Below are positions 868 through 24,945 of a stretch of 64,000 nucleotides of DNA, piece by piece (positions within the stretch are counted from its first letter, which is position 1; each line of letters starts with the position of its first letter). The notes under the pieces are model-generated. The model saw nothing but the letters and a program-made list of their open reading frames with translations. It did not search any database and was not told the DNA's origin. The translations under genes were made by a program, and so were the position numbers. The stretch is from contig MGTV01000007.1 of assembly GCA_001799635.1 (NCBI GenBank), forward strand, positions 1 through 64,000. Direction: 5' to 3'. The stretch is from Elusimicrobia bacterium GWA2_62_23. Its GTDB lineage: Bacteria > Elusimicrobiota > Elusimicrobia > Elusimicrobiales > UBA9959.

Positions 868-870
868 TTA

Positions 871-3496: not shown

Positions 3497-3518
3497 CGCT
3501 AGATTCACAAAAACATAA

Positions 3519-3562: not shown

Positions 3563-3613
3563 CTCACTTCCACTTTTGCTGAACCGCACGAGGTGCGCCA
3601 AATTAATTAAAAA

Positions 3614-3643: not shown

Positions 3644-3681
3644 AGTTTTAGCAGTGCATATCATCGGGTTAAGGGGACAAC

Positions 3682-4872
3682 ATGAAACCAGTACTCTGGG
3701 CAGTATTATTTCTCGGGACCGTCACGCCCTCATTCAGTGCGATGCCGTCGGTTGATTTTGACGGCAAAAGTAAAGAGAAACAAGACATAACCGCTTTTCC
3801 GGGAGAGGAATCTTCTGAGATTGTGGTTCCTCCAACAAAGCCGGTTGCTGATTATGATCTGGTAAAGAAACCGGGGATTATAAATGAAAATGGTGAATTT
3901 ACGCCTCTTGAGCCAGTCAAGAGCTGGCGCGGAGAAGACGGCATAATTAGGACTCAGTACCAGTATTGGCCTACACAGAAAATAAGCTGGGTGTTAGAGT
4001 GTAAAGGGACCTCCCAGCCCACTTGGAACGCCAAGGAAACGTACACCTTCACGTCTGACCAAAATGCTGGACACCATCACTATGATCCGCCGGCCCCTCC
4101 GCTTAAGGTAAGCACGTTGTACGACAACAACGCGACCGCACCGGCAGATAACGCGTTTTATCCGAAACCCAGCCCCTTTTATTTTCCTTCAATGCCTGTG
4201 AACACAAAAAAGTACTATTGGGAGTGGATGCCGGTCTTTGCGACAACACTTGTGGAAGAATTCCAATCCTTTGGCGCATGCGCCAACACCCAGATAGACA
4301 TGATTGACGTTAAAGTTCCGAATCTTGTGGAGATGAAATCAGGCACTGGATATATTGTGGATGGCGATACAGCAGAGCACCCTGCGACGCATTTTGTGAC
4401 GCCAGATTTTAAGGCGCAACTTTTGGCGATAGCCGCAACCTGGAAACAGACCTGCCCAAACTCCACCAAACCATATCCTTTGACGTTCCTCCAGATGAGC
4501 CTGCCATGGGGAGGGATGTTTGACATAAATGATAACTGGAATGCGCCCCATAGCGCGCACAGGTATGGTAATAATGCCGATGTTTCCAAATGGCGGGTTA
4601 GAAAAGGAAACCGGGCTAAGCTGGTAAAAACGATGTGCGAATACGCGCATGTGTATTCCGAAGGGGATGCCACAGGGGAAAATCCGCATTATCATTTGGC
4701 GCTACGCACCTCAAAACATACTGACGATATCCCGGACCCTTTAGACACAAGGTACCAATACTGCTGCCCAACCCCGATGCCGGATGTCCCGCAGGTCTGC
4801 ATTGATCTGGAAACCAACGGGAATCCGTCCTCAGAGCATCCTGAAGTGCCAGTAGAAACAGATTGTCCGTGA
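3682..4872 (+). CDS. Secreted M15-like zinc peptidase
   Basis: This 396-aa protein has a Sec signal peptide (about residues 1-20). A C-terminal segment holds H290-S-A-H293-x-x-G296-x-x-x-D300 and H336-Y-H338. The HxxGxxxD plus HxH arrangement is the zinc and catalytic signature of the M15/LAS peptidases (D-Ala-D-Ala dipeptidases, VanX/VanY, MepA-type murein endopeptidases). A peptidoglycan or other D-amino-acid target in the envelope is therefore likely but not shown. The first 250 residues are unfamiliar. The next gene follows by 7 nt. The segment is AT-rich and island-encoded. Confidence 0.72.
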   Translation: MKPVLWAVLFLGTVTPSFSAMPSVDFDGKSKEKQDITAFPGEESSEIVVPPTKPVADYDLVKKPGIINENGEFTPLEPVKSWRGEDGIIRTQYQYWPTQKISWVLECKGTSQPTWNAKETYTFTSDQNAGHHHYDPPAPPLKVSTLYDNNATAPADNAFYPKPSPFYFPSMPVNTKKYYWEWMPVFATTLVEEFQSFGACANTQIDMIDVKVPNLVEMKSGTGYIVDGDTAEHPATHFVTPDFKAQLLAIAATWKQTCPNSTKPYPLTFLQMSLPWGGMFDINDNWNAPHSAHRYGNNADVSKWRVRKGNRAKLVKTMCEYAHVYSEGDATGENPHYHLALRTSKHTDDIPDPLDTRYQYCCPTPMPDVPQVCIDLETNGNPSSEHPEVPVETDCP

Positions 4873-10824: not shown

Positions 10825-11829
10825 TTATTTTACCCTGTAAACCGCCACCAGCGAAGTCCCCCTGTGGCCGGCGGCGGAGTAGGAAAGCCACAACGGCAGG
10901 TATACCGGCAGCAGCAGCGCCCTGAAAAAAAGTTTTAGCGCCGCCGCCGGCAGCCGGCGCGCCAGCCTGAAGCGCAGCACCCCGGCGGCGCCTGCCGCGC
11001 CGGAGGCTACTATTTCGTCCATGCTGGCCGCGGCTTTCCCGCCGAAAAGCAGTCTCTTTACCGCCGCAATGGCGCCTTTCACGGCGGCGTCGAGCTTGAC
11101 TCCGAAAAGCTGGTTATAAACGTGCTCCGCGGGCAGTTCCGAATCTTTCAGGACCACTTTTTCCAGGCCCAGGCCGGCCAGGAAGCGGTCCAGCCGGCCC
11201 GCGTCCCAGCGGGTCAGATGATGCGGCGGATAGTCCCAGGCCTCCCGCCCGCCGAACAGAAGCGGCCGGGCGGCGTTGGGCACGCTCAGCATCAGCAGCC
11301 CTCCCGGAGCCAGCAGGCCCTTGAGTCTTTTCACGAAGTCGGCCGGAGCGGGCTGGTGCTCAAGCACTTCAAAAGCCGAAACCAGGTCGAAAGAGCCGTC
11401 CCTGCCGGGCAGGAACTCCTCGAGGCTGGCCACGGAAATATCCTCCAGGCCGGAGTTCTCCCGGGCCAGGCGCACCTGGGCCGGGCTGAAATCTATGCCG
11501 GAACAGCGGGAGTAGCCTGCCCCCGCGGCCAGGGCCAGGAATTCCCCCGCACCGCAGCCCACGTCGAGCAAGCGCGCGTCCTTCGCCAGCCCCAGTTCAA
11601 GGAAGACCCCGCCGCGCAGCCGCGCGGCCGCCCCGGAGCGGCAGGCGTCCTCGTTATAGAACGCCGCCTTGGCGTACCACTCCGGGCCAGGGTTCTCCAT
11701 GGGGTCCGCGAACTCCCCGCCGCAGCCGCCGCAGCGGACAAAAGCGTAACTCCTGCCGGAAACAGGGTCGGTGGAAAGCTCAAAAGGGACGCAGCGGCCG
11801 CCGCCGCAAAGAGGGCAAGCAGGTGTCAT
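10825..11829 (-). CDS. SAM-dependent methyltransferase with N-terminal zinc ribbon
   Basis: The 334 aa begin with C5-x2-C8 and C33-x2-C36, a zinc-ribbon pair common in sugar and polyketide methyltransferases. The class I SAM-binding motif DVGCGAGEF follows near residue 90, then a GIDFS acidic loop. The PPHHLTRW segment is typical of methyltransferases in polysaccharide loci. The C-terminal region is hydrophobic (about 285-320) and may associate with membrane. It is divergent from the flippase (96-bp gap), so it probably methylates a sugar or glycan intermediate of this locus; the substrate is unknown. Confidence 0.85.
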   Translation of the reverse strand: MTPACPLCGGGRCVPFELSTDPVSGRSYAFVRCGGCGGEFADPMENPGPEWYAKAAFYNEDACRSGAAARLRGGVFLELGLAKDARLLDVGCGAGEFLALAAGAGYSRCSGIDFSPAQVRLARENSGLEDISVASLEEFLPGRDGSFDLVSAFEVLEHQPAPADFVKRLKGLLAPGGLLMLSVPNAARPLLFGGREAWDYPPHHLTRWDAGRLDRFLAGLGLEKVVLKDSELPAEHVYNQLFGVKLDAAVKGAIAAVKRLLFGGKAAASMDEIVASGAAGAAGVLRFRLARRLPAAALKLFFRALLLPVYLPLWLSYSAAGHRGTSLVAVYRVK

Positions 11830-11906
11830 TCAATCGGTAATACTACAATTTTGACCGCTCCCGGTAAACCCCGCGGCCGGCGGGCGAAACCGCCTTTTAT
11901 TTTTAG

Positions 11907-11912
11907 TATACT
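11907..11912 (+). promoter_or_regulatory. Putative -10 element for the flippase operon
   Basis: TATACT lies 13 nt upstream of the ATG at 11926, with no Shine-Dalgarno sequence in between. It is the likely start of transcription of the polysaccharide operon. Confidence 0.4.
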
Positions 11913-11925
11913 TCACTAATCCACC

Positions 11926-13365
11926 ATGACCGCCGGGCGCACTATCTTCAAGAATTTCATCTCGCTGACCTTCTCCAACGCGGTCTCCAAAGCCTCCGGC
12001 CTGCTTACCGTGGTCTACCTGGCGCGCGTGCTCGGCCCCGAGGATTTCGGCAGCATCAATTTCGCCCTGGCCCTGGTCAGTTATTTCGCCATCCTGGCGC
12101 ACCTGGGCCTGGCCACCATCGGGGTGCGGGAGCTGGCGCAGCGCCAGGAAAACCAGGGCGCCTGCGTTAACAGCATCACCAGCCTGCGGCTGCTGCTGGG
12201 CCCCGCCGCCTTCCTGTTGCTGGGGCTCTTCGTTTACCTCATGCCCCAGACCTCCGACCTGAAATGGCTTACGGTCTTCTACGGGCTCACCATGTTCACC
12301 TCCAACGTCCTGAACTTCGACTGGGTGTTCCAGGGCATAGAGAAGATGGAATACCTGGGCGCCGCCTCGGTGATCCAGGCCCTTTTCTACATGGGGGCCA
12401 TCTTCCTTTTCGTGGGAGGCAACGCCGACCTGCCGGTGATCCCCTTCCTGCTCTTCGCGGCCCAGGCGGCCGCCGCCCTTTTCCTGTTCCTGGTCTACCG
12501 CCGGCTGAACCCCGGCTACCGCTTCAGCTTCGACCCGCGGCTCTCCAGGGAACTTTTCCGCCAGGCCCTGCCGGTGGCGGCCTGGGGCGTCATGACCATC
12601 ATCATCCTGAACTCCGGCGTGACCATCCTCGGTTTCTCGCGCGGCACTGAGGAAGTCGGCTATTTCGCCGCGGCCTACAAGATAGTCTGGATCTTCGTGG
12701 AGGCCATGGTGGCCTACGCGGTGGCGGTGTTCCCCTCCATCTCCAAACATTACCTGCAGAACCCTGAAACCTTCAAGAAGATCATGGACGCCACGCTTAA
12801 ATGGATGGCCATAGCCAGCTACCCGGCGATGACCGGCCTGTTCATGCTGGCCGCCCCCATTATCACCCTCGTCTACGGCAGCAAATTCCACGAAGCCGGC
12901 CTGCTGCTCCGGCTGCTGGCGGTGCTGCCTTACCTTATCTTCCTGAGCAACGTCTTCTCCCTCTCGCTGCTGGCCGCCCACCGCCAGCAGAAGAACCTCT
13001 GGATCAGTTCCTTCCAGGCGGCCTTCTCGGTGCTGCTGGGCCTGGCGCTCATCCCGCTTTACGGCGCGGCCGGTCTCGCCGCCTCCGCGGTGATCTCTTA
13101 CGGCGTCACCAACGCCGTCTACGCCTTCCAGAGCCGCGACGTCTACCACCTTTCGCCCGCGCACGCGGTAAAACCGCTGCTGGCCTCGGCGGTAATGGCC
13201 CTGGCGCTGGCCGCGCTCTCCGGCCGGAACGTCTTTTTCCTGGTGGGGACGGGCGCCGCCGTTTACACGGCCGCCCTGCTGCTCCTTAAAGGCGTGACCA
13301 GGGAAGATCTCGACCTTATCTCGCGCACCGCCGGGTTCTGGCGCGCCGACGGGGGCGGCCAGTGA
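11926..13365 (+). CDS. Polysaccharide flippase, Wzx/MATE-like
   Basis: This 479-aa protein has about 12-14 hydrophobic helices and the polysaccharide-synthesis flippase pattern: an SNAVSKASGLLTVVYLARVLGPEDFG start, then FDWVFQG and repeated long membrane segments. Proteins of this family move undecaprenyl-linked oligosaccharides across the inner membrane. It opens the polysaccharide operon and overlaps the next gene by 4 nt. This supports a Wzx-dependent pathway, although no Wzy polymerase is visible in the window. Confidence 0.9.
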   Translation: MTAGRTIFKNFISLTFSNAVSKASGLLTVVYLARVLGPEDFGSINFALALVSYFAILAHLGLATIGVRELAQRQENQGACVNSITSLRLLLGPAAFLLLGLFVYLMPQTSDLKWLTVFYGLTMFTSNVLNFDWVFQGIEKMEYLGAASVIQALFYMGAIFLFVGGNADLPVIPFLLFAAQAAAALFLFLVYRRLNPGYRFSFDPRLSRELFRQALPVAAWGVMTIIILNSGVTILGFSRGTEEVGYFAAAYKIVWIFVEAMVAYAVAVFPSISKHYLQNPETFKKIMDATLKWMAIASYPAMTGLFMLAAPIITLVYGSKFHEAGLLLRLLAVLPYLIFLSNVFSLSLLAAHRQQKNLWISSFQAAFSVLLGLALIPLYGAAGLAASAVISYGVTNAVYAFQSRDVYHLSPAHAVKPLLASAVMALALAALSGRNVFFLVGTGAAVYTAALLLLKGVTREDLDLISRTAGFWRADGGGQ

Positions 13366-14330
13366 AGATCTCGGTTATCATAGGCACCTACAATTACGGC
13401 CGCTACATAGAGGAGGCCGTGGACAGCGTGCTGGCGCAGGATTATGCCGGCCCCATAGAGCTGATAGTGGTGGACGACGGCTCCACCGACGACACCGAGA
13501 CGCGCCTGGCCAGGTACGGCCGGGCCGTCAAATACCTTTACCAGGAGAACGCCGGCCAGGGCGCGGCTTTCAACGCCGGGCTCAAGGCCGCCTCGGGCGA
13601 ACTGGTCTGCCTGCTGGACGCCGACGACGCCTGGAAGCCGGAGAAGCTGCGGCTCGTAGCCGAAGCGTTCCGGGAAGACCCCGACGTGGGCATGGTGCAG
13701 CATTTCATGATGGACGTGGACCCGGAGGGCCGGCCGCTGAGCCAGCAATTCGACAGCCGTCCCGCATACTACGCGCTGCAGGACCTCCTGGACGGCCGCG
13801 CCAGTTTTACCGGCACCAGCGGCCTGGCCTTCAGGCGTTCTTTCCTGGACAAAACGCTGCCAGTGCCCGACGGGCTGTTCTACTGCGCCGACGAGTACCT
13901 CTACCTCGCCATTCTCTTCCACTCGCGGGTCCGCTCGCTGAACTCGGTGCTTGGCTTCAAGAAGATCCACGGCGCCAACTGGTTCGCCGGCACCATGAGC
14001 GACACCCGCCGGCTGGGCAACTACATCAAGGTCAAGACGCTGATCTTAAAAGAGCTGGCCGCCCTGATGAAAAAGAACGGCGTCGATATCGCCGGGACCC
14101 GGATACAGCTGCCCATGGAACTGACCAAGGCCCGGGTCCTGTATCATTCCCGTCGCGCTGAGCGCGGAGAGGCCCTGAAAATTATTTTAAGGGAAATACT
14201 CTTCAACCCGACCGCCCCGCGCAAACTCTTCAACTCCCTTACGCTGGCCTTGTCGGCACTGAGCCCCGCGCTCTACCTGCGCCTGCACAAGTTCTATTCC
14301 GGGCTGCGCTCCCGGAAAACCCCGCAATAA
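13362..14330 (+). CDS. Family 2 glycosyltransferase
   Basis: The 322-aa product starts with GTG inside the flippase stop. It has the GT2/GT-A fold: a VIIGTYNYG strand, VVDDGSTDDTE, and the nucleotide-metal motif DADD in CLLDADDAWKPEKL. The catalytic-base region and a C-terminal helical tail (about 240-320) complete the typical length. It probably adds a sugar to a lipid-linked intermediate on the inner face of the cytoplasmic membrane. Donor and acceptor cannot be read from the sequence. Confidence 0.9.
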   Translation: MKISVIIGTYNYGRYIEEAVDSVLAQDYAGPIELIVVDDGSTDDTETRLARYGRAVKYLYQENAGQGAAFNAGLKAASGELVCLLDADDAWKPEKLRLVAEAFREDPDVGMVQHFMMDVDPEGRPLSQQFDSRPAYYALQDLLDGRASFTGTSGLAFRRSFLDKTLPVPDGLFYCADEYLYLAILFHSRVRSLNSVLGFKKIHGANWFAGTMSDTRRLGNYIKVKTLILKELAALMKKNGVDIAGTRIQLPMELTKARVLYHSRRAERGEALKIILREILFNPTAPRKLFNSLTLALSALSPALYLRLHKFYSGLRSRKTPQ

Positions 14331-14426
14331 GCCCTCTCTGAAAGCCAGGCGCCCCCCGCCCCGTCTTATTTGAATGTCCTATAATTATTATTATATTATT
14401 GGGAACGGCGGCTCCGGCCGCACGCT

Positions 14427-15428
14427 ATGATAATAACCAAGACCCCGCACAGGATCTCCTTTTTCGGCGGCGGCACCGACTATCCGTCCTGGTACCTTAA
14501 GAACGGCGGCAAGGTGCTGGGCGCGGCCATAGACAAGTATTGCTACCTCATAGTCCGGGAACTTCCACCTTTCTTCGAACACAAGCACCGCATAGTCTAT
14601 TCGCGCATGGAGAACGTCAGCGCCATAGAGGAGATAGCCCACCCCTCCGTGAAGGCGGTGCTCAAGCGCATGAAGTACCAGAAGGGCATCTCCATCCACC
14701 ACGACGGCGACATCCCGGCCCGCTCGGGCATGGGCTCCAGCTCGGCCTTTACCGTGGGCCTGCTCAACGCCATGTACACCCTGGAAGGCCGGGCCATCTC
14801 CAAGGACGACCTCGGCGAGCTGGCCATCGACGTGGAGCAGAACGATATCAAGGAGAACGTCGGGTCCCAGGACCAGATCTTCGCCGCGCACGGCGGCTTC
14901 AACCGCGTCGAGTTCCTGCCCAGCCGCGAGATCGTGGTCTCCCCCGTGGTGATGAAGCCCGAGAACGCCCGGGCCCTGGAACAGCGGCTGATGCTGGTTT
15001 TCACCGGCCTGTCGCGCAACGCTTCCGACATAGCGCAGGAACAGATAGCCAACGTGGGGCGCAACGCCGCGGAACTGGCCCGCATGGCCGGCCTGGTGGA
15101 CGAGGCTTACGGCCTCATCACCGCGCCCAAGCCGGACCTCCCGGCCTTCGGCCGCCTGCTCAACGAGACCTGGAAAATGAAACGCGCGCTCTCCAGCAAG
15201 ATCAGCAGCTCCCATATCGACGGCATCCACGAGGCCGCGCTCAAGGCCGGCGCGGAAGGCGGCAAGCTGCTGGGCGCCGGCGGCGGCGGCTTCATGCTCT
15301 TCTCGGCCGAGCCTGAGCGGCAGGCCCAGGTCCGGGAAGCGCTCAAAGGCCTCCTGCTCATCCCTTTCAAGTTCGAATACTTCGGCAGCCAGATCATTTA
15401 CTACTCGCACGGGGCCGAGCGCCAATGA
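14427..15428 (+). CDS. hddA: D-glycero-D-manno-heptose 7-phosphate kinase
   Basis: This 333-aa GHMP-family kinase has RISFFGGGTDYP near the start, the ATP loop PARSGMGSSSAFTVGLL (about residues 95-110) and the C-terminal GAGGGGFMLF. The start and loops match the HddA group, which phosphorylates D-glycero-D-manno-heptose 7-phosphate at C1 for GDP-heptose synthesis. The adjoining nucleotidyltransferase with a 4-nt overlap supports this role. GmhA and GmhB are not in the window. A related sugar kinase is the main alternative. Confidence 0.85.
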   Translation: MIITKTPHRISFFGGGTDYPSWYLKNGGKVLGAAIDKYCYLIVRELPPFFEHKHRIVYSRMENVSAIEEIAHPSVKAVLKRMKYQKGISIHHDGDIPARSGMGSSSAFTVGLLNAMYTLEGRAISKDDLGELAIDVEQNDIKENVGSQDQIFAAHGGFNRVEFLPSREIVVSPVVMKPENARALEQRLMLVFTGLSRNASDIAQEQIANVGRNAAELARMAGLVDEAYGLITAPKPDLPAFGRLLNETWKMKRALSSKISSSHIDGIHEAALKAGAEGGKLLGAGGGGFMLFSAEPERQAQVREALKGLLLIPFKFEYFGSQIIYYSHGAERQ

Positions 15429-16123
15429 CCGCGCCGGACGCCGTGATCCTCTGCGGCGGCCTGGGCAAACGCCTCAGGAGCGCCGTAAAGGACGTGCCCA
15501 AACCCATGGCGAAAGTGGCCGGCCGGCCTTTCCTGGACATCCTGCTGGCGCACCTGCGCCGCCAGGGACTGCGCCGGGCCGTGCTGTGCGCGGGTTACCG
15601 GGCCGGGGCCATAAAGCGCCACTACGCCGGAGACAAGGACGTTCTCGTTTCGGCCGAGCCGCGGCCCCTCGGTACGGCCGGCGCCGTAAAGCACGCCGCG
15701 CGGCTCATAAAGTCCGGCCGTTTCCTGGTGCTCAACGGGGATTCTTTCTGCGCCGCCGACCTCAGGCGCTTCCAGGCCTTCCACCGCAGGAAAAAGGCCG
15801 AAGCCTCCGTGGTGCTCACCCGGCCGGCGGGCCGCGGGGACGTGGGCGCCGTCCGCCTGGGCTCCGGCGGCAGGATCAAGGATTTCAGGGAGAAGGCCGG
15901 CGCGGCCCCGGGCGCCCTGGTCAACGCGGGCATCTACCTGTTGGAGCGCGGCGTGCTCGCCAGGATCCCGGCCGGGAAGAAGTATTCCTTCGAATACGAC
16001 CTCTTCCCCGCGCTGCGCAGCTGCTACGGGTTCAGGACCGCCGCCGCGCTGCTCGACATCGGCACGCCGGAAAGGTACCGGGCGGCGGAAAAGATCTTAA
16101 GGAAGTCAGGACAACTGCCATGA
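15425..16123 (+). CDS. hddC: Heptose 1-phosphate guanylyltransferase-like nucleotidyltransferase
   Basis: The 232-aa protein has the NTP-transferase signature GGLGKRLRS followed by the KPM lysine, then the VLNGDSF metal site and a D-I-G-T-P ending like other HddC/RfbA-type enzymes. Length and pairing with hddA indicate it activates a heptose 1-phosphate to the GDP sugar. It overlaps hddA and the next gene through ATGA junctions at both ends. Specificity for GTP and heptose is inferred from context; a mannose- or other hexose-1-phosphate enzyme is possible. Confidence 0.78.
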   Translation: MTAPDAVILCGGLGKRLRSAVKDVPKPMAKVAGRPFLDILLAHLRRQGLRRAVLCAGYRAGAIKRHYAGDKDVLVSAEPRPLGTAGAVKHAARLIKSGRFLVLNGDSFCAADLRRFQAFHRRKKAEASVVLTRPAGRGDVGAVRLGSGGRIKDFREKAGAAPGALVNAGIYLLERGVLARIPAGKKYSFEYDLFPALRSCYGFRTAAALLDIGTPERYRAAEKILRKSGQLP

Positions 16124-17322
16124 AAAAACTACGCTATCCTTTCGGCACCATCACCATCACCGACAAGACCAAGAAACTCGTGAACGGCGCGCTGGACTCC
16201 GGACGCATCTCCGGCGGCCGGCTCGTACGCGAGTTCGAGCAGGGTTTCGCCAGGCTGGTAGGCACGAAAGAAGCCGTAGCCATGTCCTCGGGCACCGACG
16301 CCGACGCCCTGGCGCTGGCCGTGCTCTACGACCGCGGCGCGCAGCGCGGCGACGAGGTGATAGTCCCCTCCCTCTCCTTCGTGGCCACCGGCAACGCCGT
16401 GCTCCAGGCCGGCTTCATTCCCAGGTTCGTGGACATAGAGCGCACCACGCTCAACATAGATCCCCGCAAGATAGAAGCCGCCGTCGGCCCCCGCACCCGC
16501 GGCATCATGCCCGTGCACCTCATGGGCAAGCCGGCGGACATGGACGCCGTCAACGCGGTGGCCAAGAAGCACGGACTGCTGGTGGTGGAAGACGCGGCCG
16601 AGGCCCAGAGCGCCACCTATAAGGGGAAGAATATAGGCACCCTGGGCGACATGGCGGCCTTCAGCCTCTACATCGCGCACGTTATCTCCACCGGCGAAGG
16701 CGGCATAGTGGCCACCGACAACCCGGACTACGCCAATACCCTGCGCTCGCTGCGCGCCCACGGCCGGGCCTGCAAATGCTCCTCCTGCATGATGAGCGTC
16801 AGCGGCGGCCACTGCGACAAGCGCTTCAAGCACGGCACGGACATCCGCTTCATCTTCGAACGCGTCGGCTTCTCGGCCAAGATGAACGAGCTGGAAGCCG
16901 CCATCGGCCTGGGCTACCTGGACATCTACCCGGAGATCTACAACGCCCGCCTGCGGAACTTCAACTACATCCACAAAAAGTTCGCCTCCCTCAAGCCGCA
17001 CCTGCTCACCATAGACCCGGTGGCCGGAGAGGAGATGGCCCCCTACGCTTTCCCGGTGCTGGTGCCGCCCGGCGCGCGCTTCACGCGCGACCAGCTGATG
17101 ACGTACCTGGAAGACAACGGCGTGGACACCCGCAGCCTGTTCCTCTCCATGCCCACGCAGTGCCCCGGCTTCGCCTTTCTCGGCCACAAGCTCGGGGAAT
17201 TCCCGGAAGCGGAATACTGCGCGAACAACGGCCTGCATATCGGCCTGCACCAGGACATCAACGAGGAACACCTGGACTATTTCATAGAGCTGACTAAGAA
17301 GTTCCTGGAAAGCAGACTATAG
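16120..17322 (+). CDS. RfbH/ColD-like 3-dehydrase of the DegT/DnrJ/EryC1 family
   Basis: The ATG at 16120 (overlapping the hddC stop) gives a 400-aa fold-type I PLP/PMP enzyme. The cofactor Asp is D158 in VVEDAAE. The position that holds the Schiff-base Lys in aminotransferases is H187 (SLYIAHVISTGEGG), as in ColD and CDP-sugar dehydrase E1. Four cysteines, C218, C220, C223 and C232, precede KRF, as in the [2Fe-2S] segment of RfbH/AscC. It should therefore remove the C3 hydroxyl of a 4-keto-6-deoxy nucleotide sugar rather than transaminate it. The dedicated E3 reductase partner is not seen here. Confidence 0.85.
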   Translation: MKKLRYPFGTITITDKTKKLVNGALDSGRISGGRLVREFEQGFARLVGTKEAVAMSSGTDADALALAVLYDRGAQRGDEVIVPSLSFVATGNAVLQAGFIPRFVDIERTTLNIDPRKIEAAVGPRTRGIMPVHLMGKPADMDAVNAVAKKHGLLVVEDAAEAQSATYKGKNIGTLGDMAAFSLYIAHVISTGEGGIVATDNPDYANTLRSLRAHGRACKCSSCMMSVSGGHCDKRFKHGTDIRFIFERVGFSAKMNELEAAIGLGYLDIYPEIYNARLRNFNYIHKKFASLKPHLLTIDPVAGEEMAPYAFPVLVPPGARFTRDQLMTYLEDNGVDTRSLFLSMPTQCPGFAFLGHKLGEFPEAEYCANNGLHIGLHQDINEEHLDYFIELTKKFLESRL

Positions 17323-17358
17323 CGGGCCGCCCGGGGCGGGCCGCGACGGAGAACAAAA

Positions 17359-18297
17359 ATGGGACACAATATCCTCGTCACCGGCGGGGCCGGTTATCTT
17401 GGTTCGGTGCTGGTGCCGCAGCTGCTCTCGCTGGGGCACAAGGTCACCGTGCTGGACAATTTCATGTACTCGCCCAACTCCCTGGCCGAGTGCTGCCGCA
17501 ACAAGTCCTTTAACGTGGTCCGCGGCGACGCGCGCGACCCGCGCAAGGTGAAGCCCCTGCTCAAGAAGGCGGACGTGATCATCCCCCTGGCCGCCCTGGT
17601 GGGCGCCCCGCTCTGCGACAACGACGTCACCGCGGCCAAGACCGTGAACTTCGAGGCCGTCAGGTGGCTGGCCAGGAACGCCGCCCCGGCGCAGCGCATA
17701 GTCTACCCTACCACCAACAGCGGCTACGGCATAGGCGCCGCGGACAAGTTCTGCACGGAGAAAACCCCCCTCAACCCCATCTCCCTCTACGGCCGCGTGA
17801 AAGTGGACGCCGAGAAAGCGGTGCTGGCGCGCCAGAACTCGGTCAGCCTGCGCCTGGCCACGGTGTTCGGGATGTCGCCCCGCATGCGCCTGGACCTGCT
17901 GGTCAACGACTTCGTCTACCGCGCCGTCACCGACCGTTTCGTGATCATCTTCGAAGGCCACTTCCGCCGCAACTACATCCACATCATGGACGTGGCCAAG
18001 GCCTTCTCCCACGTGCTCAATAAATTCCCCAAGATGCGCGGCGAGGCCTACAACGTGGGGCTCAGCCAGGCCAACCTCTCCAAGCTGCAGCTGTGCGCCA
18101 AGATCAAGGAGCACCTGCCCAAGTTCGTCTACCTGGAATCCCCGGTGGGCGAGGACGTGGACAAGCGCGACTACATAGTCTCCAACGAGAAGATAGAGAA
18201 GACCGGTTTCAGGCCCGGCTATTCCCTCGACGACGGGATCGAAGAGCTCATCAAGGGCTACGCCATCCTGCGCAATTCCAGATACGGCAACGTTTAG
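17359..18297 (+). CDS. Extended SDR nucleotide-sugar epimerase/dehydratase
   Basis: The 312-aa protein has the NAD-binding TGGAGYLGS loop at residues 8-16, the D37-type acidic residue after VTVLDN, and the catalytic YGRVK (YxxxK) motif near residue 150 preceded by a TTNSG segment. It belongs to the NAD-dependent epimerase/dehydratase family. In this locus it may be a 4-ketoreductase or epimerase acting after the dehydrase, but the sequence does not reveal which. GGAG lies about 7 nt before the ATG; the 36-nt gap before it is GC-rich. Confidence 0.85.
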   Translation: MGHNILVTGGAGYLGSVLVPQLLSLGHKVTVLDNFMYSPNSLAECCRNKSFNVVRGDARDPRKVKPLLKKADVIIPLAALVGAPLCDNDVTAAKTVNFEAVRWLARNAAPAQRIVYPTTNSGYGIGAADKFCTEKTPLNPISLYGRVKVDAEKAVLARQNSVSLRLATVFGMSPRMRLDLLVNDFVYRAVTDRFVIIFEGHFRRNYIHIMDVAKAFSHVLNKFPKMRGEAYNVGLSQANLSKLQLCAKIKEHLPKFVYLESPVGEDVDKRDYIVSNEKIEKTGFRPGYSLDDGIEELIKGYAILRNSRYGNV

Positions 18298-18304
18298 GCT
18301 GAAC

Positions 18305-19297
18305 ATGAAGAACAGAAAATTCAAGAAGATTGTAATTACCGGCATTACCGGCTCCGGCGGCAGCTACCTGGCCGACCATATAGCCGACAACCGGCCTGGC
18401 ACGGCCATCCACGGCATCTCCCGGTGGCACAGCACCTCTTCCGCCCGGAACCTGGCCAGGTCCCGCTCCAGGGTGACCCTGCACGAATGCGACCTGCTGG
18501 ACTTCAAGTCCGTGCTGGACGTGCTGCGCGAGGTGAAGCCGGACGGGATTTTCCACATCGCCTCCCACGCCAACGTGCGCGCCTCTTTCGCCACGCCGCT
18601 GGCGGTGCTCAACAACAACATCATGGGCACGGCCAACCTCTTCGAGGCGGTGCGCGCCGCCGGCCTGGACCCCGTGATCCAGCTCTGCAGCACGTCGGAG
18701 GTTTACGGCCAGGTACAGAAGAAGGACGTGCCGATAACCGAGGAGTGCCGGTTCCGGCCGGCCAGCCCCTACGCCGTCTCCAAGGCCGCGCAGGACATGC
18801 TGGGCCACACCTATTTCGCCAACTACGGCATGAAGGTCATCCGCACGCGCATGTTCGCCTACCTCAACCCGCGCCGGGCGGACCTGTTCGCCACCTCCTT
18901 CGCCATGCAGGTGGCCCGCATAGAGGCGGGCCTCCAGAAAACGCTGCTGCACGGCAACCTGGACTCCACCCGCACCCTGATAGACGTGCGCGACGCCATG
19001 GAATCCTACTGGACCGCCATGAGTTGCTGCGACTTCGGCGAGGCCTATAACATAGGCGGCACCACGGTCATCAAGGTAGGCGAGTTCCTGGCGCTGCTCA
19101 AGAAGCTCGCCCGCTGCCCTGTCCCCTCCAAGGCGGACAAAACCCTGTTCCGCCCCACCGACGTCACCCTGCAGATACCCGACGTGGGCAAATTCCGCCG
19201 GTGCACCGGCTGGAAGCCCCGCTACTCCTTCAAGGAGAGCGTGGCCTTCCTGCTGGAGCACTGCCGCGCCGAAGTGAGCCGCGAGGCCCGCAAATGA
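18305..19297 (+). CDS. Gmd-like GDP-sugar 4,6-dehydratase
   Basis: This 330-aa extended SDR has TGITGSGGSYLADH at the NAD site, the active-site run CSTSEVYGQ, and YAVSK. The Glu in the SEVYG segment is characteristic of 4,6-dehydratases, and overall it resembles GDP-mannose 4,6-dehydratase. Next to hddA/hddC its substrate could be GDP-D-glycero-D-manno-heptose, as in 6-deoxyheptose pathways of Yersinia and Campylobacter. The 4-keto-6-deoxy product would feed the 3-dehydrase. It overlaps the next gene by an ATGA. Confidence 0.8.
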   Translation: MKNRKFKKIVITGITGSGGSYLADHIADNRPGTAIHGISRWHSTSSARNLARSRSRVTLHECDLLDFKSVLDVLREVKPDGIFHIASHANVRASFATPLAVLNNNIMGTANLFEAVRAAGLDPVIQLCSTSEVYGQVQKKDVPITEECRFRPASPYAVSKAAQDMLGHTYFANYGMKVIRTRMFAYLNPRRADLFATSFAMQVARIEAGLQKTLLHGNLDSTRTLIDVRDAMESYWTAMSCCDFGEAYNIGGTTVIKVGEFLALLKKLARCPVPSKADKTLFRPTDVTLQIPDVGKFRRCTGWKPRYSFKESVAFLLEHCRAEVSREARK

Positions 19298-20217
19298 CGG
19301 CCGCCTACGAGGCCATGTTCCGCCAGGCCCTGCGCATCCGCCTGGCCGAGGAAAAGATAGCCGAGATCTACCCGAGCGACAAGATCCAGAGCCCGGTGCA
19401 CCTCTCCATAGGCCAGGAGCCGCATACCGCGGCCCTCATAGCCTCGCTCGCCCCGGGCGACCAGCTCTACACCACCTACCGCAGCCACGCCGCCTACCTG
19501 GCCAAGGGCGGCGACATGCGCCTGATGTTCGCCGAACTTTACGGCAAAGCCTCCGGCATCTCCAAAGGCAAGGCCGGCTCCATGCACCTGTGCTCGCCGG
19601 AGCACGGCCTGATGGGCTGCTCGGCCATAGTGGCCGCCACCATCTCCCACGCCGTGGGCGCGGGGTACGCCTTCCAGCTGCTGGGCCGCAAGGACATCGT
19701 GGTCTCGCTGACCGGCGACGGCTCCACCGAGGAAGGCGTCTTCCACGAATGCCTCAATTTCGCGGCCCTCAGAAAACTGCCGGTACTCTTCGTGATAGAG
19801 AACAACGGGCTGGCCATCCACGCCCATCTCGCCGGGCGGCAGGCCTTCTCGCTGGAAAAACTGACCGCGGCCTACGGCATTCCCTATTTCCTCTCCCCCG
19901 ACGGGCTCGATATGCCGGCCGTGGCGGCGCAGACCGCAAAGATAGCGGCCGCCGTGCGCGGCGGGGCCGGGCCCGCGGTCTACGAGATCCGCGCCTGCCG
20001 CTACATGCAGCACGTGGGCGTGGCGCAGGATTTCGACAAGGGCTACCGCGACCGGGCCGAATTCGAGGCGTGGCGCGCGAGGGACCCGCTCGTGCGGGAG
20101 AAGGCGCTGATAGAAAAATTCCGCCCCGAGCTGGACCGCGAGATAGCGGCCGCCGTTGACTTCGCCGAGAAAGCCCCCTTCCCCGCCTGCGAGGAAGTGC
20201 TCAAGGACGTATTCTGA
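19294..20217 (+). CDS. Thiamine-diphosphate E1 alpha subunit
   Basis: The ATG at 19294 overlaps the preceding stop and gives 307 aa. The protein matches the alpha subunits of pyruvate/acetoin/2-oxoacid dehydrogenase E1: HLSIGQE, YRSHAAYLAKGG, and the ThDP motif GDG (141-143) to NN (170-171). With the following beta subunit it forms an alpha2-beta2 enzyme that decarboxylates a 2-oxoacid and transfers the resulting acyl carbanion. No E2 lipoyl or E3 gene is near, so it probably transfers a two-carbon unit to a sugar rather than to lipoate. Confidence 0.88.
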   Translation: MTAAYEAMFRQALRIRLAEEKIAEIYPSDKIQSPVHLSIGQEPHTAALIASLAPGDQLYTTYRSHAAYLAKGGDMRLMFAELYGKASGISKGKAGSMHLCSPEHGLMGCSAIVAATISHAVGAGYAFQLLGRKDIVVSLTGDGSTEEGVFHECLNFAALRKLPVLFVIENNGLAIHAHLAGRQAFSLEKLTAAYGIPYFLSPDGLDMPAVAAQTAKIAAAVRGGAGPAVYEIRACRYMQHVGVAQDFDKGYRDRAEFEAWRARDPLVREKALIEKFRPELDREIAAAVDFAEKAPFPACEEVLKDVF

Positions 20218-21275
20218 TGAAGACCATGACCTACAGGGAAGCCATAGCCCGGAGCATGCGCGGGGCGCTGGAAAAGAACCCCCGGTCGATCATCTACGGC
20301 CTGGGCGTCACGGATTTCACCGGTATCTTCGGCACCACCCTCGGCCTGGAAAAGGAGTTCGGCTCCGGCCGCGTCTTCGACACGCCGCTGTCCGAGGACG
20401 CCATGACCGGCTTCGCCGTGGGCGCCGCCTTGAACGGCCTCTATCCCATCCACATCCATATCCGCGCGGACTTCATGCTGCTGGCCATGAACCAGCTGGT
20501 GAATTCCATAGCCAAGTACAAGTACATGTACGGCGGCCTGTTCGAACTGCCCCTGCTGGTGCGCGCCGTGATAGGCCGCAGCTGGGGCCAGGGCGCGCAG
20601 CATTCCCAGAGCCTGCAGGCGCTGCTCTCGCACGTGCCTGGGCTCACGGTGGTGATGCCGGCCTCGGCCCAGAGCGTGCTGGACACCTACGAGTACGCGG
20701 CCACCAAGGCCCGCTTCCCGGTGATCTCGCTGGAACACCGCCTGCTCTACGACTATTCCTTCAACCTGGACGCCGGCGCGCGGCCGGCGGACCCGTTCAC
20801 CTCGCGGCTGGTGCGCGAAGGGCGCCACGTGACGGTGGCCGCCACCTCGGTCATGGTGGCCGACGCCGTCAACGCGGCGAAATTCGTCTCGGAGAAGGCC
20901 GGCATCGAGGCCGAGGTCATAGACCTGCACTGCCTCACCCGCCCCGACTCGAAGCTGCTCCTGGACAGCGTGCGCAAGACCGGCCGCCTGATAGTGGCCG
21001 ACGCCGGCTGGGCCCCTTTCGGAGTCTGCGCCGAAATTTCCCGCCTGGTGGCCACCTCCGACCCCGGCCTGCTCAAGGCCCCGGTCCAGGAAATAGCGCA
21101 GGCGCACTCGCCCTGCCCCACCGCCAAGACCCTCGAGAACCATTTCTACCCGGACATGGGCACCGTCGCCGACGCGATCTGCCGCCTGGCCTCGGGCAGG
21201 AAGGACCACGGCGTGGAACTGCCTTCGGCCGACTACAAGCGCCGCCTGTACAAGGAATTCAAAGGACCTTTCTAG
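20217..21275 (+). CDS. Thiamine-diphosphate E1 beta subunit
   Basis: The 352-aa protein has the transketolase pyrimidine-binding and C-terminal domains of E1 beta, including the DTPLSEDAMTGFAVGAAL segment with the cofactor-activating Glu and the YDYSF region. It begins on the last base of the alpha subunit stop (1-nt overlap), indicating strict co-translation. Together with the alpha subunit it resembles the split E1-type enzymes that add two-carbon branches to sugars, for example AviB1/AviB2 of avilamycin synthesis. The partner 2-oxoacid is likely pyruvate, by analogy only. Confidence 0.88.
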   Translation: MKTMTYREAIARSMRGALEKNPRSIIYGLGVTDFTGIFGTTLGLEKEFGSGRVFDTPLSEDAMTGFAVGAALNGLYPIHIHIRADFMLLAMNQLVNSIAKYKYMYGGLFELPLLVRAVIGRSWGQGAQHSQSLQALLSHVPGLTVVMPASAQSVLDTYEYAATKARFPVISLEHRLLYDYSFNLDAGARPADPFTSRLVREGRHVTVAATSVMVADAVNAAKFVSEKAGIEAEVIDLHCLTRPDSKLLLDSVRKTGRLIVADAGWAPFGVCAEISRLVATSDPGLLKAPVQEIAQAHSPCPTAKTLENHFYPDMGTVADAICRLASGRKDHGVELPSADYKRRLYKEFKGPF

Positions 21276-21278
21276 CGG

Positions 21279-22721
21279 ATGGACATAGTACTTATCAACC
21301 CGGGGAGCCGGACGCAGACCTACCAGAAGCTCGGCGGCGAGATCGCCGCCATAGAGCCTCCGTACTGGGCCGCCGTGATAGCGGCCTGGCTGCGCGGTCG
21401 CGGCTTCACAGTGAGCGTAATAGACGCCAACGCCCTGGACCTCACCCCGGAGGAGACCGCCGCCCGGGCCGCCGCCCTCAAGCCGCTGGCGGCGGCGGTG
21501 ATGGTTTACGGCTCGCAGCCTTCCGCCTCCACCCAGAACATGACCTGCGCCTCGGCCACGGCCGCCGCGCTGCGCGAAACTTCGGGGACTTTCGTGCTGA
21601 TGGGCGGCCTTCACCCCACGGCCCTGCCTGAGCGCACCCTGAAAGAATCCGGGGCCCACGCCGTGCTGATGGGCGAAGGCCACCGCCCCCTGCTCGCCCT
21701 GCTCGAAAAACTCCGCGCCGGCCTGGAGCCGGGAGAGGTCCCGGGCCTGTATACCGGCGGGACACCGGGCCCGCTGCCGCCGTCTTCCAAAAATCTCGAC
21801 GAGGACCTCCCCCTGGCCGCCTGGGACCTGCTGCCCATGGAGAAGTATCGCGCCCACAACTGGCACTGCTTCGACGACATCAACGCCCGCAGCCCTTATG
21901 CCGCGCTCTATACCAGCCTGGGCTGCCCCTACAGCTGCGCCTTCTGCTGCATCAACGCCCTGTTCGGCCGGCCGGGTATCCGCTACCGCTCCCCCGGCGC
22001 GGTGCTGGCCGAAATAGACGAACTGCGTAACCGCTACGGCGTGCGCAACCTCAAGATCATAGACGAGCTCTTCATTTTCGACGAGAAACACTACATGCCC
22101 ATAGTGGAAGGGCTGCGGGAGAGGAACTACGGCCTCAATATCTGGGCTTACGCCCGGGTGGACACCGTCAGGCCGGAGCGCCTGCCCGCCCTCAAGCAGG
22201 CCGGCATCAACTGGCTGGCGCTGGGCATAGAGTCCGCAGACCCGGCCGTGCGCGACGGCGCGCAGAAGAACATGCGCGAGCGCGATATCAAGAGCCTGGT
22301 GCGCGCTATCCAGGCCGCCGGCATCCGGGTCATCGGCAACTACATCTTCGGCCTGCCCGAAGACACGCCGGAAAGCATGCGCCGCACCCTGGACCTGGCC
22401 AAGGACCTCAACTGCGAATTCGCCAATTTCTATTCGGCCATGGCCTACCCGGGTTCCGCCCTGTACCGCCAGGCCGCGGCCGAGGGCTGGGCGCTGCCGG
22501 CGGAGTGGAGCGGTTTCTCGCAGCACTCCTACGACGCGCTGCCCCTCCCCACCAGGACGCTCACCGCCGCGCAGGTCCTCCGGTTCAGGGACGAAGCTTT
22601 CACGGAGTATTTCACCTCCCCCGCCTACCTGGGCCTGCTGGAGACCAGGTTCGGCCCCGGGGTCAGGACCCACGTCGAGGCCGTAGCGGCGCACCGGCTC
22701 AAGCGCCGCCTGCTGGAATAA
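21279..22721 (+). CDS. B12-binding-domain radical SAM protein
   Basis: The 480 aa contain an N-terminal Rossmann-like B12-binding region (about 1-165) and a radical SAM domain with C216-x3-C220-x2-C223 for the [4Fe-4S] cluster. A GIES segment and GNYIFGLPED, typical of this class, follow. The N-terminal domain lacks an obvious DxHxxG cobalamin motif, so cobalamin use is uncertain. It starts 3 nt after E1 beta and probably belongs to the same operon. Members of this class methylate, rearrange or oxidise diverse metabolites; the substrate here is unknown. Confidence 0.85.
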   Translation: MDIVLINPGSRTQTYQKLGGEIAAIEPPYWAAVIAAWLRGRGFTVSVIDANALDLTPEETAARAAALKPLAAAVMVYGSQPSASTQNMTCASATAAALRETSGTFVLMGGLHPTALPERTLKESGAHAVLMGEGHRPLLALLEKLRAGLEPGEVPGLYTGGTPGPLPPSSKNLDEDLPLAAWDLLPMEKYRAHNWHCFDDINARSPYAALYTSLGCPYSCAFCCINALFGRPGIRYRSPGAVLAEIDELRNRYGVRNLKIIDELFIFDEKHYMPIVEGLRERNYGLNIWAYARVDTVRPERLPALKQAGINWLALGIESADPAVRDGAQKNMRERDIKSLVRAIQAAGIRVIGNYIFGLPEDTPESMRRTLDLAKDLNCEFANFYSAMAYPGSALYRQAAAEGWALPAEWSGFSQHSYDALPLPTRTLTAAQVLRFRDEAFTEYFTSPAYLGLLETRFGPGVRTHVEAVAAHRLKRRLLE

Positions 22722-22729
22722 GGAACCCC

Positions 22730-23953
22730 ATGGAAACACCGGTCTTCCCCGACAAGAAAGTCCTGATCGTCTACCCCACCGACTACAACGGTTACCGGGA
22801 GCGCTTCGCCCCCCTCGTGCCTCATTTCAGCTCCGTGGTCTATTTCAACTACACCTCCGCCTGCGACGAAGCGGGGCCCGCCGGGGTGGAGCCCCGCCTG
22901 GCCGCCCTGGCCGCCGCGGAGCGGCCCGACATCGTGCTCTGCTGCTTCTTCGCGAGCGACCACCTGGTGTCCGTGGAATTCCTGGCCGAACTGCGAAAGA
23001 AGACCGCCGTGGTCTTCTGGTTCGCCGACGACGCCACCTATTTCGAGACCTACAGCCGCTACTACGCCCAGGCCGCGGACGCCGTGGTTACCGCCGACCC
23101 GTCCGCGGTGCAGGCCTACGGCCGCCTGGAGATCCCCGCCGTTTTCTGCCCGGAAATAGTGGCCAACAACAAACTGGCCCCGCTGGAGCTCGAGCGGGAC
23201 ATCGACGTGCTTTTCATAGGTGACGTTTCCAAACGCGGCCGCGCCGAATACCTGGAGCACCTGCGCGCCAACGGCGTATCACCCGTGGTCTACGGCTTCG
23301 GCTCGTCCAACGGCTACCTGCCTTTCGACAAGATCTCCGAATATTTCTGCCGCAGCAAGATAGTCCTGAATTTCTGCCAGGTCGGCGAGCTCAACTGGAT
23401 CAACGAAGACGAACCGCTGCTCGCCAGGGTGCGCCAGAACCCCGGCCGGCCGCGCGAAATCGCGCTCACCCGCTCATTCTGCCTCTCCGAATACTCCCCC
23501 TCGCTGGAAGCCTCCTTCAAGCTTGGGTCCGAGATCGACACGTTCCGCGACAAGGAAGAACTCCTTGAAAAAGTCCGCTACTACCTTGCCAACCCCGGCC
23601 GCCGCGGCGAGATAGCCGCCGCCGCGTATAAGCGGGCCGAACCCGCGTACCAGGTGCCGGTCTACATCGCCAGGACCCTGCGGGAAACCGCCGCCATCCT
23701 CGCCGCCGGCAGGCCGCGGCTGCCTTCCGGCGGACAGCTCTTTCTCAGCGCGGCCTTCAAGGCCAAGGCCGTGAATTCGCTCACTTTCTCGCTCTACTCC
23801 CAGCTGGCCCGCGGGCACGCGCTAAAGGCCGCCGCCTCGCTGCCGCGCCTGCTGCGCTACGGTCCCGCCGCCTTCCTGCGCGGCTTCTACGGCGGCACCA
23901 GGCGCGCCCTGGCCCTGCTGGGCCGCAAACTTTCCGCGGGCGGCCGCTCATGA
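22730..23953 (+). CDS. CgeB-like glycosyltransferase
   Basis: The ATG at 22730, with AAGGA upstream, opens a 407-aa protein of the GT-B type. The N-terminal half has a VLIVYPTDYNGY strand and a VFWFADDATYF segment. The C-terminal half carries the group-1 transferase 1_2 pattern (a GSEIDTFRDKEEL region followed by YYLANPGRR), as in CgeB/YkvP proteins. It begins 8 nt after the radical SAM gene and overlaps the next gene. It probably adds one sugar of the exported glycan. Confidence 0.82.
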   Translation: METPVFPDKKVLIVYPTDYNGYRERFAPLVPHFSSVVYFNYTSACDEAGPAGVEPRLAALAAAERPDIVLCCFFASDHLVSVEFLAELRKKTAVVFWFADDATYFETYSRYYAQAADAVVTADPSAVQAYGRLEIPAVFCPEIVANNKLAPLELERDIDVLFIGDVSKRGRAEYLEHLRANGVSPVVYGFGSSNGYLPFDKISEYFCRSKIVLNFCQVGELNWINEDEPLLARVRQNPGRPREIALTRSFCLSEYSPSLEASFKLGSEIDTFRDKEELLEKVRYYLANPGRRGEIAAAAYKRAEPAYQVPVYIARTLRETAAILAAGRPRLPSGGQLFLSAAFKAKAVNSLTFSLYSQLARGHALKAAASLPRLLRYGPAAFLRGFYGGTRRALALLGRKLSAGGRS

Positions 23954-24945
23954 GCCCGCTGTTCACGGTCATCATCCCGGCCTACAACCGCGCCGACCTG
24001 CTGCGCCTGACGCTCAAAAGCCTGGACGCGCAGACCTTCCGGGATTACGAGGCCTTCATCCTGGACGACGGGTCCACCGACGCCACGCCGGAAGTGTTCA
24101 AGGAGTTCGCCGGGCGCCCCGGCTGGAACTTCGTCCGTTTCGAGGCGAACCGCCGCCAGGGCGGCTGCCGCAATTACGCCATGGAGCGCGCCGCCGGCGA
24201 CTACGTCACTTTCCTGGACGCGGACGACCTCTGGCTGCCCCGGCGCCTGGAGAAGTTCGCGGAGCTCATAGCGCGCAACCCGGCCGCCGGCTTCGTCTTC
24301 TCCAACGGCTACATCCTGCGCGAAGGGCGCCTCACCGGCAAATTCTTCGACGAGGGCCGCGCCGTCCCGCGCGGCAAGCTCCCCCCTTACATGGCCATTT
24401 CCGACAAGTGGCTGCCCTACGTGACCACCAACGTGGCCTTCAAGCGGACCGTCCTGGAAAAGACGGGCCCCTTCCGCCAGGACCTCAGCCATCTGGAGGA
24501 CATGGAACTTTATGTGAAGATACTGCGGGACTGGGAGGCCGACTTCATAGCCGAACCGCTATCGGTCTACCGCATACACTCGCTCACCTCCAACCCGGCC
24601 AGCCTCACCCTAAAATGGGACGACGGCGTGGCGGATTTCCGCGAAGCCCTGAAGACCGCGGCCCCCGACCCGGCCGCCCGGCGGGAGCTGGAGGACTACG
24701 TCTATCTGAAGCAGGCGGAGGTCTACCTGAAGAACCTGCAGCCCGGCAAGGCCAGGGAGTATCTCAGGCTCGCGCATTCGCGCGGCCCCGCGTGGCTGAA
24801 GCTTTTCGCGGGCTCGCTGCTGCCCGCCTCCTCGCTGGCCCTCCTGCGCGGCCTCTACGCCCTCAAAAGAAAAGCGGCGCCCTCGTCGGACGCCGCCATG
24901 GCCGAGGCCGAAGCCTGGGTCAAAGAACTGGAAAATCCCCGCTAA
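23950..24945 (+). CDS. Family 2 glycosyltransferase
   Basis: This 331-aa GT-A enzyme has VIIPAYNRADLL, LDDGSTDATPE and the metal motif DADD in FLDADDLWLPRRL. The later HLEDMELYVKILR segment contains the catalytic-base ED typical of the family. The helical C-terminal part contains a possible TPR-like region. It is the last gene of the polysaccharide operon and ends directly against the stop of the convergent deacetylase gene. Donor and acceptor are unknown. Confidence 0.9.
   Translation: MSPLFTVIIPAYNRADLLRLTLKSLDAQTFRDYEAFILDDGSTDATPEVFKEFAGRPGWNFVRFEANRRQGGCRNYAMERAAGDYVTFLDADDLWLPRRLEKFAELIARNPAAGFVFSNGYILREGRLTGKFFDEGRAVPRGKLPPYMAISDKWLPYVTTNVAFKRTVLEKTGPFRQDLSHLEDMELYVKILRDWEADFIAEPLSVYRIHSLTSNPASLTLKWDDGVADFREALKTAAPDPAARRELEDYVYLKQAEVYLKNLQPGKAREYLRLAHSRGPAWLKLFAGSLLPASSLALLRGLYALKRKAAPSSDAAMAEAEAWVKELENPR

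Follow-up and report, generated by a model that had tools for sequence, protein, structure and literature searches.

The window, a stretch of 64,000 nucleotides from Elusimicrobia bacterium GWA2_62_23 (phylum Elusimicrobiota; contig MGTV01000007.1, positions 1 to 64,000 of the forward strand), contains an operon that probably serves to produce a GDP-linked, C-branched deoxy-heptose and to put it to use in a cell-surface polysaccharide, as judged from homology and gene context. The predicted route starts from a GDP-heptose, which an HddA-like kinase and an HddC-like guanylyltransferase would supply. SDR1, a short-chain dehydrogenase/reductase (SDR), would oxidize C4 of this GDP-heptose, and an RfbH-like 3-dehydratase, which depends on pyridoxal phosphate (PLP), would remove the C3 hydroxyl, yielding GDP-3-deoxy-4-keto-heptose. 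A two-subunit E1 enzyme (E1-alpha/E1-beta) dependent on thiamine diphosphate (ThDP) might then decarboxylate pyruvate and add the C2 unit to the C4 ketone, which would give a 4-C-acetyl tertiary alcohol with nine carbons. The branch would be reduced by a ketoreductase, possibly the Gmd-like SDR of the operon (GmdL); alternatively, GmdL would supply a 6-deoxy group. A B12-binding radical S-adenosylmethionine (SAM) protein may modify the branched sugar further, and glycosyltransferases and a flippase would use the finished sugar. ThDP branching on GDP-heptose is well supported by context, while we infer the action of E1 on the ketone of GDP-3-deoxy-4-keto-heptose, its donor, and all later steps.

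The gene combination, which a sequence-only reading of this DNA had pointed out, recurs in other genomes. SDR1 is present in 41 of 294 genomes of the phylum. The 40 phylum loci that were compared comprise all these genomes, the window included, except G226 (L232, 43% identity), which was left out and has a Lys-type DegT protein and no ThDP match. Within 10 kb either side of SDR1, where the stretch allows, a two-gene ThDP enzyme is found in 36 of the 40 loci (35 of 39 without the window), compared to 1 of 20 same-phylum controls (L251). A His-type dehydratase, with His in place of the PLP-binding Lys, accompanies SDR1 in 33 of the 40 loci (32 without the window) and none of the 20 controls, and both enzymes occur together in 30 loci (29 without the window), again compared to no control. 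HddA, HddC, and GmdL are found at 33, 21, and 20 of the 40 loci, and at 7, 5, and 0 of the controls. Two of the loci scored as pairless do have an E1 pair: at L229 both open reading frames (ORFs) are there, the E1-alpha frame extending so far upstream that it failed the 1.7-kb pairing rule, and in G114 (L214) the pair is about 10 kb away, outside the stretch. The same-phylum controls are 20 of 24 lower-identity Gmd/reductase-like SDR rows, three of them with stretches shorter than 8 kb; excluded were G170 (L044, which has the cassette), G024:C68 (an SDR1 locus), G021, and G081.

For other phyla, 80 matches were listed, of which 21 (L054-L074) form the SDR1 set, nine (L075-L083) were not counted, and 50 (L084-L133) served as distant-SDR controls. 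Among the 21, a ThDP pair is present in six (three mini-E1 and three transketolase pairs), a His-type dehydratase in eight, both in five, HddA in 11, and HddC in 13; the 50 distant controls contain one HddC and no ThDP pair, His-type dehydratase, HddA, or radical SAM homologue. For the ThDP pair, Fisher's test gives p = 8e-11 for the phylum and 4e-4 for the other phyla, with loci treated as independent though the genomes are related. The ThDP profiles were seeded from five counted loci (transketolase), the three mini loci (mini), and this phylum (E1), and they were used alike on the controls; most seeds are also recognized by Pfam, to which L071 was not sent. The B12-binding radical SAM protein recurs as well: homologues with at least 40% identity lie within 10 kb of SDR1 in 19 of the 40 phylum loci (18 of 39 without the window) and in three of the 21 listed matches from other phyla, compared to none of 70 controls, which suggests an extra step such as C-methylation. 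One of the other cassettes that encode it is L223 (5907-7412).

All six gene types named by the sequence-only reading are open frames, according to the ORF list and family searches. The operon-like run, which had been placed at 10825-24945, is confirmed as a tightly packed plus-strand operon from 11926 to 24945; the methyltransferase ORF at 10825-11829 lies outside it, on the minus strand. The genes are as follows:

11926-13365, plus strand: Wzx-like flippase, named by reading the translation (74% homologue in L031)
13362-14330, plus strand: family 2 glycosyltransferase-like protein, named by reading the translation, no family search (74% homologue in L031)
14427-15428, plus strand: HddA-like GHMP kinase of the D-glycero-D-manno-heptose-7-phosphate kinase type (PDB matches, NCBIfam)
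15425-16123, plus strand: HddC-like sugar-1-phosphate guanylyltransferase (PDB matches, NCBIfam)
16120-17322, plus strand: RfbH-like PLP-dependent 3-dehydratase, predicted, with His for Lys and a four-Cys loop (NCBIfam, alignment, fold search)
17359-18297, plus strand: SDR1, C4-dehydrogenase homologue (best PDB match 6vo6)
18305-19297, plus strand: GmdL, Gmd/GDP-heptose-4,6-dehydratase-like SDR, dehydratase or ketoreductase (best PDB match 7us5, tree)
19294-20217, plus strand: E1-alpha subunit, probable standalone ThDP carboligase (PF00676, GDG...ENN motif, H-x-G loop, tree)
20217-21275, plus strand: E1-beta subunit (PF02779 and PF02780)
21279-22721, plus strand: B12-binding radical SAM protein, probable further tailoring enzyme (PF02310 and PF04055)
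22730-23953, plus strand: glycosyl transferase-like protein (PF13524)
23950-24945, plus strand: family 2 glycosyltransferase (family search)

HddA/HddC, HddC/RfbH, and GmdL/E1-alpha overlap by 4 bp each and E1-alpha/E1-beta by 1 bp, the RfbH start being the ATG at 16120, which overlaps the HddC stop. The gaps are 36 bp between RfbH and SDR1, 7 bp between SDR1 and GmdL, 3 bp between E1-beta and the radical SAM gene, and 8 bp between the latter and the next glycosyltransferase gene. Elsewhere in the window, the G+C content of positions 1-4000 is 0.44-0.45, compared to about 0.59-0.67 from 6001 on.

GDP-heptose as the base sugar, as the sequence-only reading had it, is supported by homology and context. 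The best PDB matches of HddA are 4usk, labelled a sugar kinase, followed by 3k85 and 4n3o, labelled heptose-phosphate kinases (E 6e-40 to 5e-38), and HddA is its top NCBIfam model. HddC is closest to 6jq8/5xhw, labelled "putative 6-deoxy-D-mannoheptose pathway protein" (E 2e-34). Despite NCBIfam scores below the cut-offs, the nearest solved structures of both proteins are mostly heptose enzymes by label, and heptose activation by HddA and HddC is a rather firm prediction. Elsewhere in the genome are a GmhA gene (C22:29270; 199.8 bits, slightly below the model cut-off of 209), an HldA-like kinase gene (342.8 bits, slightly below the cut-off of 345), and, on contig C39, a GmhB-like HAD ORF that scores above the cut-off of TIGR01656. 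On C39 (G000:C39, L136) the GmhB-like and HldA-like genes lie close together with an LpxK-like gene, named from its translation, and this clustering suggests that an ADP-heptose route for lipopolysaccharide probably exists beside the GDP route. GmhA (at least 35% identity) is found at none of the 40 phylum SDR1 loci and at seven of the 21 listed from other phyla.

SDR1 matches the structure 6vo6 over residues 2-311 with an E-value of 5.9e-113. In the PDB this entry is labelled putative sugar-nucleotide epimerase/dehydratase, and we take it to be Cj1427 of Campylobacter, a GDP-heptose C4-dehydrogenase. PMC10680097 cites a Cj1427 structure paper. SDR1 is accordingly described here as a C4-dehydrogenase homologue, and C4 oxidation is a rather firm prediction for its role. 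Given this resemblance, 6-deoxygenation is not required for a 4-keto sugar to form, and the product may carry only the 3-deoxy group instead of being 3,6-dideoxy. In the loci L058, L059, L073, L215, and L216, SDR1 stands beside an RfbH-type enzyme and GmdL is missing within range, which makes SDR1 the likely source of the 4-ketone. Of the "3,6-dideoxy" sugar that had been predicted the 3-deoxy part is supported, whereas 4,6-dehydration is not needed for the ketone, and "3-deoxy, perhaps 3,6-dideoxy" is the better wording.

The role of GmdL is more ambiguous. Its best PDB match is the GDP-heptose 4,6-dehydratase 7us5 (E 6e-53), followed by the reductase 2pk3 (E 8e-50), and with identities of 34% to 7us5 and 32% to a 4-reductase it is about equidistant from both types. 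In a tree it groups with 7us5 and apart from the reductase rows, which have long branches (support 97/88 for the larger and 81/82 for the inner group). GmdL retains the STSEVYG and YxxxK motifs; assignment of its role by motif was rejected as a criterion, because the Glu motif is common to the dehydratases and one reductase. GmdL accompanies the full E1 pair in 13 of 19 loci and the transketolase-only type in three of 11, and in two (G274, G210) of the six full-E1 loci without it, it is encoded on another contig; this co-occurrence hints that GmdL acts on the E1 product. At L044 and L251, an E1 pair and HddA stand beside SDRs that are 46% and 53% identical to GDP-heptose 4,6-dehydratase. No SDR1 was seen near these two loci, and their genomes (G170, G164) are outside the list of SDR1 genomes. 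The SDRs of L044 and L251 would be candidates for alternative makers of GDP-4-keto-heptose.

C3 deoxygenation by a His-type PLP enzyme, also part of the sequence-only reading, is supported by homology and context and is rather firm as a prediction. The protein scores 270 bits with the NCBIfam RfbH model (cut-off 423), and His replaces the PLP lysine in all ten aligned rows, the window's included. The cysteine half of the "His and cysteine signature" that had been ascribed to it is not supported as RfbH-type. The RfbH-type [2Fe-2S] motif is C-57X-C-1X-C-7X-C, while the pattern in the window is CxCx2Cx8C. In addition, where the CDP-sugar E1 dehydrase 3bcx has its upstream Cys, the protein of the window has another residue (EDAAEA compared to EDCCDA), and the loop is not supported as a classical [2Fe-2S] RfbH site. 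All four cysteines are present in eight of the ten rows, including the window, but not in L058 and L059. The AlphaFold model has a mean pLDDT (predicted local distance difference test) of 80, but values below 50 in the Cys loop (213-229), so the modelled geometry of the loop is uninformative. A fold search with the model retrieved GDP-perosamine synthase as best match, E1 dehydrase, and ColD. A search for the dedicated E3 reductase (RfbI/AscD) of such dehydrases gave one PF00970 match in the genome, in a frame of 285 amino acids. Where a phylum SDR1 locus has a His-type enzyme (33 loci), the best match is ColD-like in 21 cases and RfbH-like in 12, and those ColD-like enzymes that were inspected are without the Cys loop.

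By family the E1 pair belongs to the E1 components of pyruvate dehydrogenase (PDH), and several observations predict that it is probably a standalone carboligase. The sequence-only reading had described it as an E1 without E2 and E3. No E2 (PF00198) was found in the source genome, which is 91.8% complete, nor in the close cassette-bearing relatives G057, G221, and G114; the E3 of the dehydrogenase complexes was not searched for. E2 is missing in 14 of the 26 genomes with E1 loci, the source genome included. The 31 E1-alphas from loci without an adjacent E2 (20 SDR1 loci, seven other phylum loci, and four plasmid regions) form one group in the tree (support 99/96). Ten stretches around E2 genes contain an adjacent E1 pair in four cases, and the E1-alphas of these form a separate clade (100/100). 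The H-x-G loop is present in 31 of the 31 E1-alphas without adjacent E2, compared to none of six E2-linked or human PDH rows.

The ThDP slot is filled by different enzymes, namely E1-alpha/beta, a divergent E1-like pair, or a split transketolase, and in other phyla also by a mini-E1; such interchangeability agrees with the transfer of a C2 unit to a ketone. In the 40 phylum loci, a full E1 pair, alone or with another, is found in 19, transketolase halves alone in 11, a divergent pair without a full one in six, and no pair in four. Pfam confirmed the split transketolases in L200, L201, L212, L213, and L218. The mini pairs (E1_dh/Transket_pyr, about 205 and 178 residues) of L058 and L064 have Transket_pyr matches at or just under the cut-off, and that of L071 is recognized by similarity only. 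None of the mini pairs (L058 7819-8992, L064 15101-16248, L071 11546-12708) has a match to the transketolase C-terminal domain, and their neighbors are SDR1, HddA, HddC, and a His-type dehydratase. In L034 a second, divergent E1-like pair (11774-13548, about 300 residues each) lies directly behind the first, and divergent pairs are also found in L199, L201, L202, L205, L210, and L211.

Plasmids carry related sets. The full set is present on pDMC1 of Solidesulfovibrio magneticus RS-1, with the radical SAM protein (49%), HddA (52%), E1-alpha (37%), E1-beta (44%), an RfbH-type enzyme with the Cys loop (56%), SDR1 (59%), HddC (39%), and an Fcl-like SDR that is 36% identical to a sister-locus protein; no literature link was found for this species. 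A plasmid of Azospirillum ramasamyi has a partial set (SDR1 67%, ColD-type enzyme 58%, E1-alpha 47%, HddC-like protein 38%, and an E1-beta annotated as "transketolase C-terminal domain-containing protein") with no HddA within 10 kb. Both plasmids were retrieved via the E1 search, so they do not represent blind recurrence.

Several observations weigh against the proposed route, and some of them favor other explanations. Seven of the 40 phylum SDR1 loci are without a His-type dehydratase in range, and at L251, with its E1 pair and 4,6-dehydratase homologue, no 3-dehydratase was found. Of the 21 listed SDR1 loci from other phyla, several of them on short contigs, 15 have no ThDP pair and none has a full E1; beyond the phylum, full E1 together with SDR1 was seen only on the plasmids from the E1 search. 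E1 pairs of the same clade also stand beside Lys-type DegT proteins with no close SDR1 (L039, L040, L041, and L222, the last additionally with a GmhA-like protein and a PfkB kinase), and these clusters represent perhaps another branched-sugar route. A further pair of the clade (L220, 8986-11032), on a plasmid of Streptomyces griseofuscus, is found beside condensation-domain and regulatory genes, with no sugar genes annotated in the stretch. The presence of SDR1 and GmdL in one operon would be odd if GmdL were a 4,6-dehydratase, and close GmdL homologues (at least 60%) occur in 23 of 294 phylum genomes, one as a partial match, all 23 of which also have SDR1. It is unlikely, though by no means far-fetched, that GmdL is a true 4,6-dehydratase, which would make the product a 3,6-dideoxy branched heptose and SDR1 the final branch reductase. 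The tree and the retained motifs would agree with this, as would L044 and L251, with closer 4,6-dehydratase homologues and no SDR1; however, SDR1 is far closer to 6vo6, GmdL is nearly equidistant from 7us5 and a reductase, and SDR1 is found with RfbH-type enzymes at loci where GmdL is missing within range.

The same branching could instead occur on a GDP-hexose, in a colitose-like route from GDP-mannose with HddA and HddC mis-assigned. HddA scores only 148 bits with its model, far under the equivalog cut-off of 600, and HddC 130.8 bits (cut-off 300), less than the 148.6 bits reached with the Rv-type mannose-1-phosphate guanylyltransferase model, which is also under its cut-off; the best fold match of the RfbH-like enzyme is a GDP-perosamine synthase. 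We nevertheless consider a hexose quite improbable, because heptose enzymes, by label, are the PDB neighbors of HddC and GmdL and rank second and third for HddA, 6vo6 presumably being another one, and because of GmhA at other-phyla SDR1 loci and HddA at most phylum ones. It is very improbable that the E1 pair is an ordinary component of a pyruvate or acetoin dehydrogenase that stands here by chance. It does belong to the PDH E1 family, the remaining 12 of the 26 genomes have an E2 on a contig other than that of the E1 locus, and an E2 could be missed in an incomplete genome. Yet an ordinary dehydrogenase was rejected on the grounds of the absence of E2 here and in three relatives, the separate clade of the E2-adjacent pairs, and the loop; the short overlaps with sugar genes and the recurrence of the combination also argue against it. 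Equally remote is an aminotransferase function of the RfbH-like enzyme, which would lead to an amino sugar and not to a 3-deoxy sugar: perosamine synthase is among its top sequence and fold matches, but every row has His at the place of the PLP lysine, as in ColD and RfbH, and enzymes of this type are found at most SDR1 loci.

Beyond the route proposed for this operon, it is tentatively suggested, as a possibility that falls slightly short of an even call, that many phyla share a single modular pathway for an unrecognized, large class of GDP-linked, C-branched 3-deoxy-heptoses with at least nine carbons. The ketone would be provided by a C4-dehydrogenase together with a His-type 3-dehydratase, and differing branches would be written by split ThDP enzymes that can stand in for one another (E1-alpha/beta, split transketolase, or mini-E1 without C-terminal domain), often with an added B12 radical SAM step. 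The prediction points to a surface-sugar family that may have been overlooked in carbohydrate chemistry. The polysaccharide loci concerned occur in many genomes of the phylum, with some more in other phyla and one on the plasmid of S. magneticus. It brings together the literatures on Campylobacter GDP-heptoses and on ThDP-dependent sugar branching, and it offers candidate ketone-accepting ThDP enzymes of several architectures that are directly testable.

The chemistry is known piecewise, and the combination is apparently undescribed. The sequence-only reading knew of no described pathway with it, and in the open-licence literature that was searched no report of the gene combination or of a branched GDP-heptose was found either, which does not prove its absence in print. 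PMC10680097 does not contain the word "branched," and no word in a 2025 review of ThDP-dependent sugar branching (PMC12247030) starts with "heptose" or "GDP." The first half of the proposed route resembles the GDP-heptose pathways of Campylobacter jejuni (Cj1427, the 4,6-dehydratase, and the HS:5 C3-dehydratase), which include C4 oxidation or 4,6-dehydration, and PLP-dependent 3-deoxygenation; Cj1427 and a C3-dehydratase together yielded GDP-3-deoxy-4-keto-heptose in vitro (PMC10680097). In contrast, the C. jejuni route ends in C5 epimerization and C4 reduction, and the GDP-3-deoxy-heptoses came from enzymes mixed in vitro. ColD and the RfbH/E1 3-dehydratases share the His-type DegT fold and 3-deoxygenation, but the substrate of ColD is a GDP-hexose and the Cys arrangement of RfbH differs, while the substrate here is probably a heptose.

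The second half resembles the synthesis of yersiniose A, in which a 4-keto deoxy nucleotide sugar of a surface polysaccharide is branched at C4 by a ThDP enzyme and then reduced. According to PMC4753412 and PMC12247030, that pathway uses a CDP sugar and the single-chain YerE, a ThDP flavoprotein; here, a gene pair (PF00676 and PF02779/PF02780) or a transketolase stands beside GDP-heptose-type enzymes. That a split E1 might replace YerE is, as a role for an E1 without E2, supported by context, but the idea is not new: the same sources describe two-subunit alpha-KADH2 enzymes for which the addition of C2 branches to antibiotic sugars is known or has been proposed (aldgamycin, kibdelomycin KbDH, AviB1/B2, Pau11/12). 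The likeness, by description and not by sequence, lies in a split E1 that forms a C2 branch on a keto sugar, and the window indeed has a two-subunit E1 that lacks an E2 partner and lies among deoxy-keto-sugar genes, albeit in a glycosyltransferase/flippase locus with heptose activation. For miharamycin and amipurimycin, the proposal is that split transketolases transfer a C2 unit onto a keto sugar, and the 13 candidates listed in PMC12247030 are all from Streptomycetes. Unlike these, the split transketolases found here replace the E1 pair in 11 of the 40 phylum SDR1 loci.

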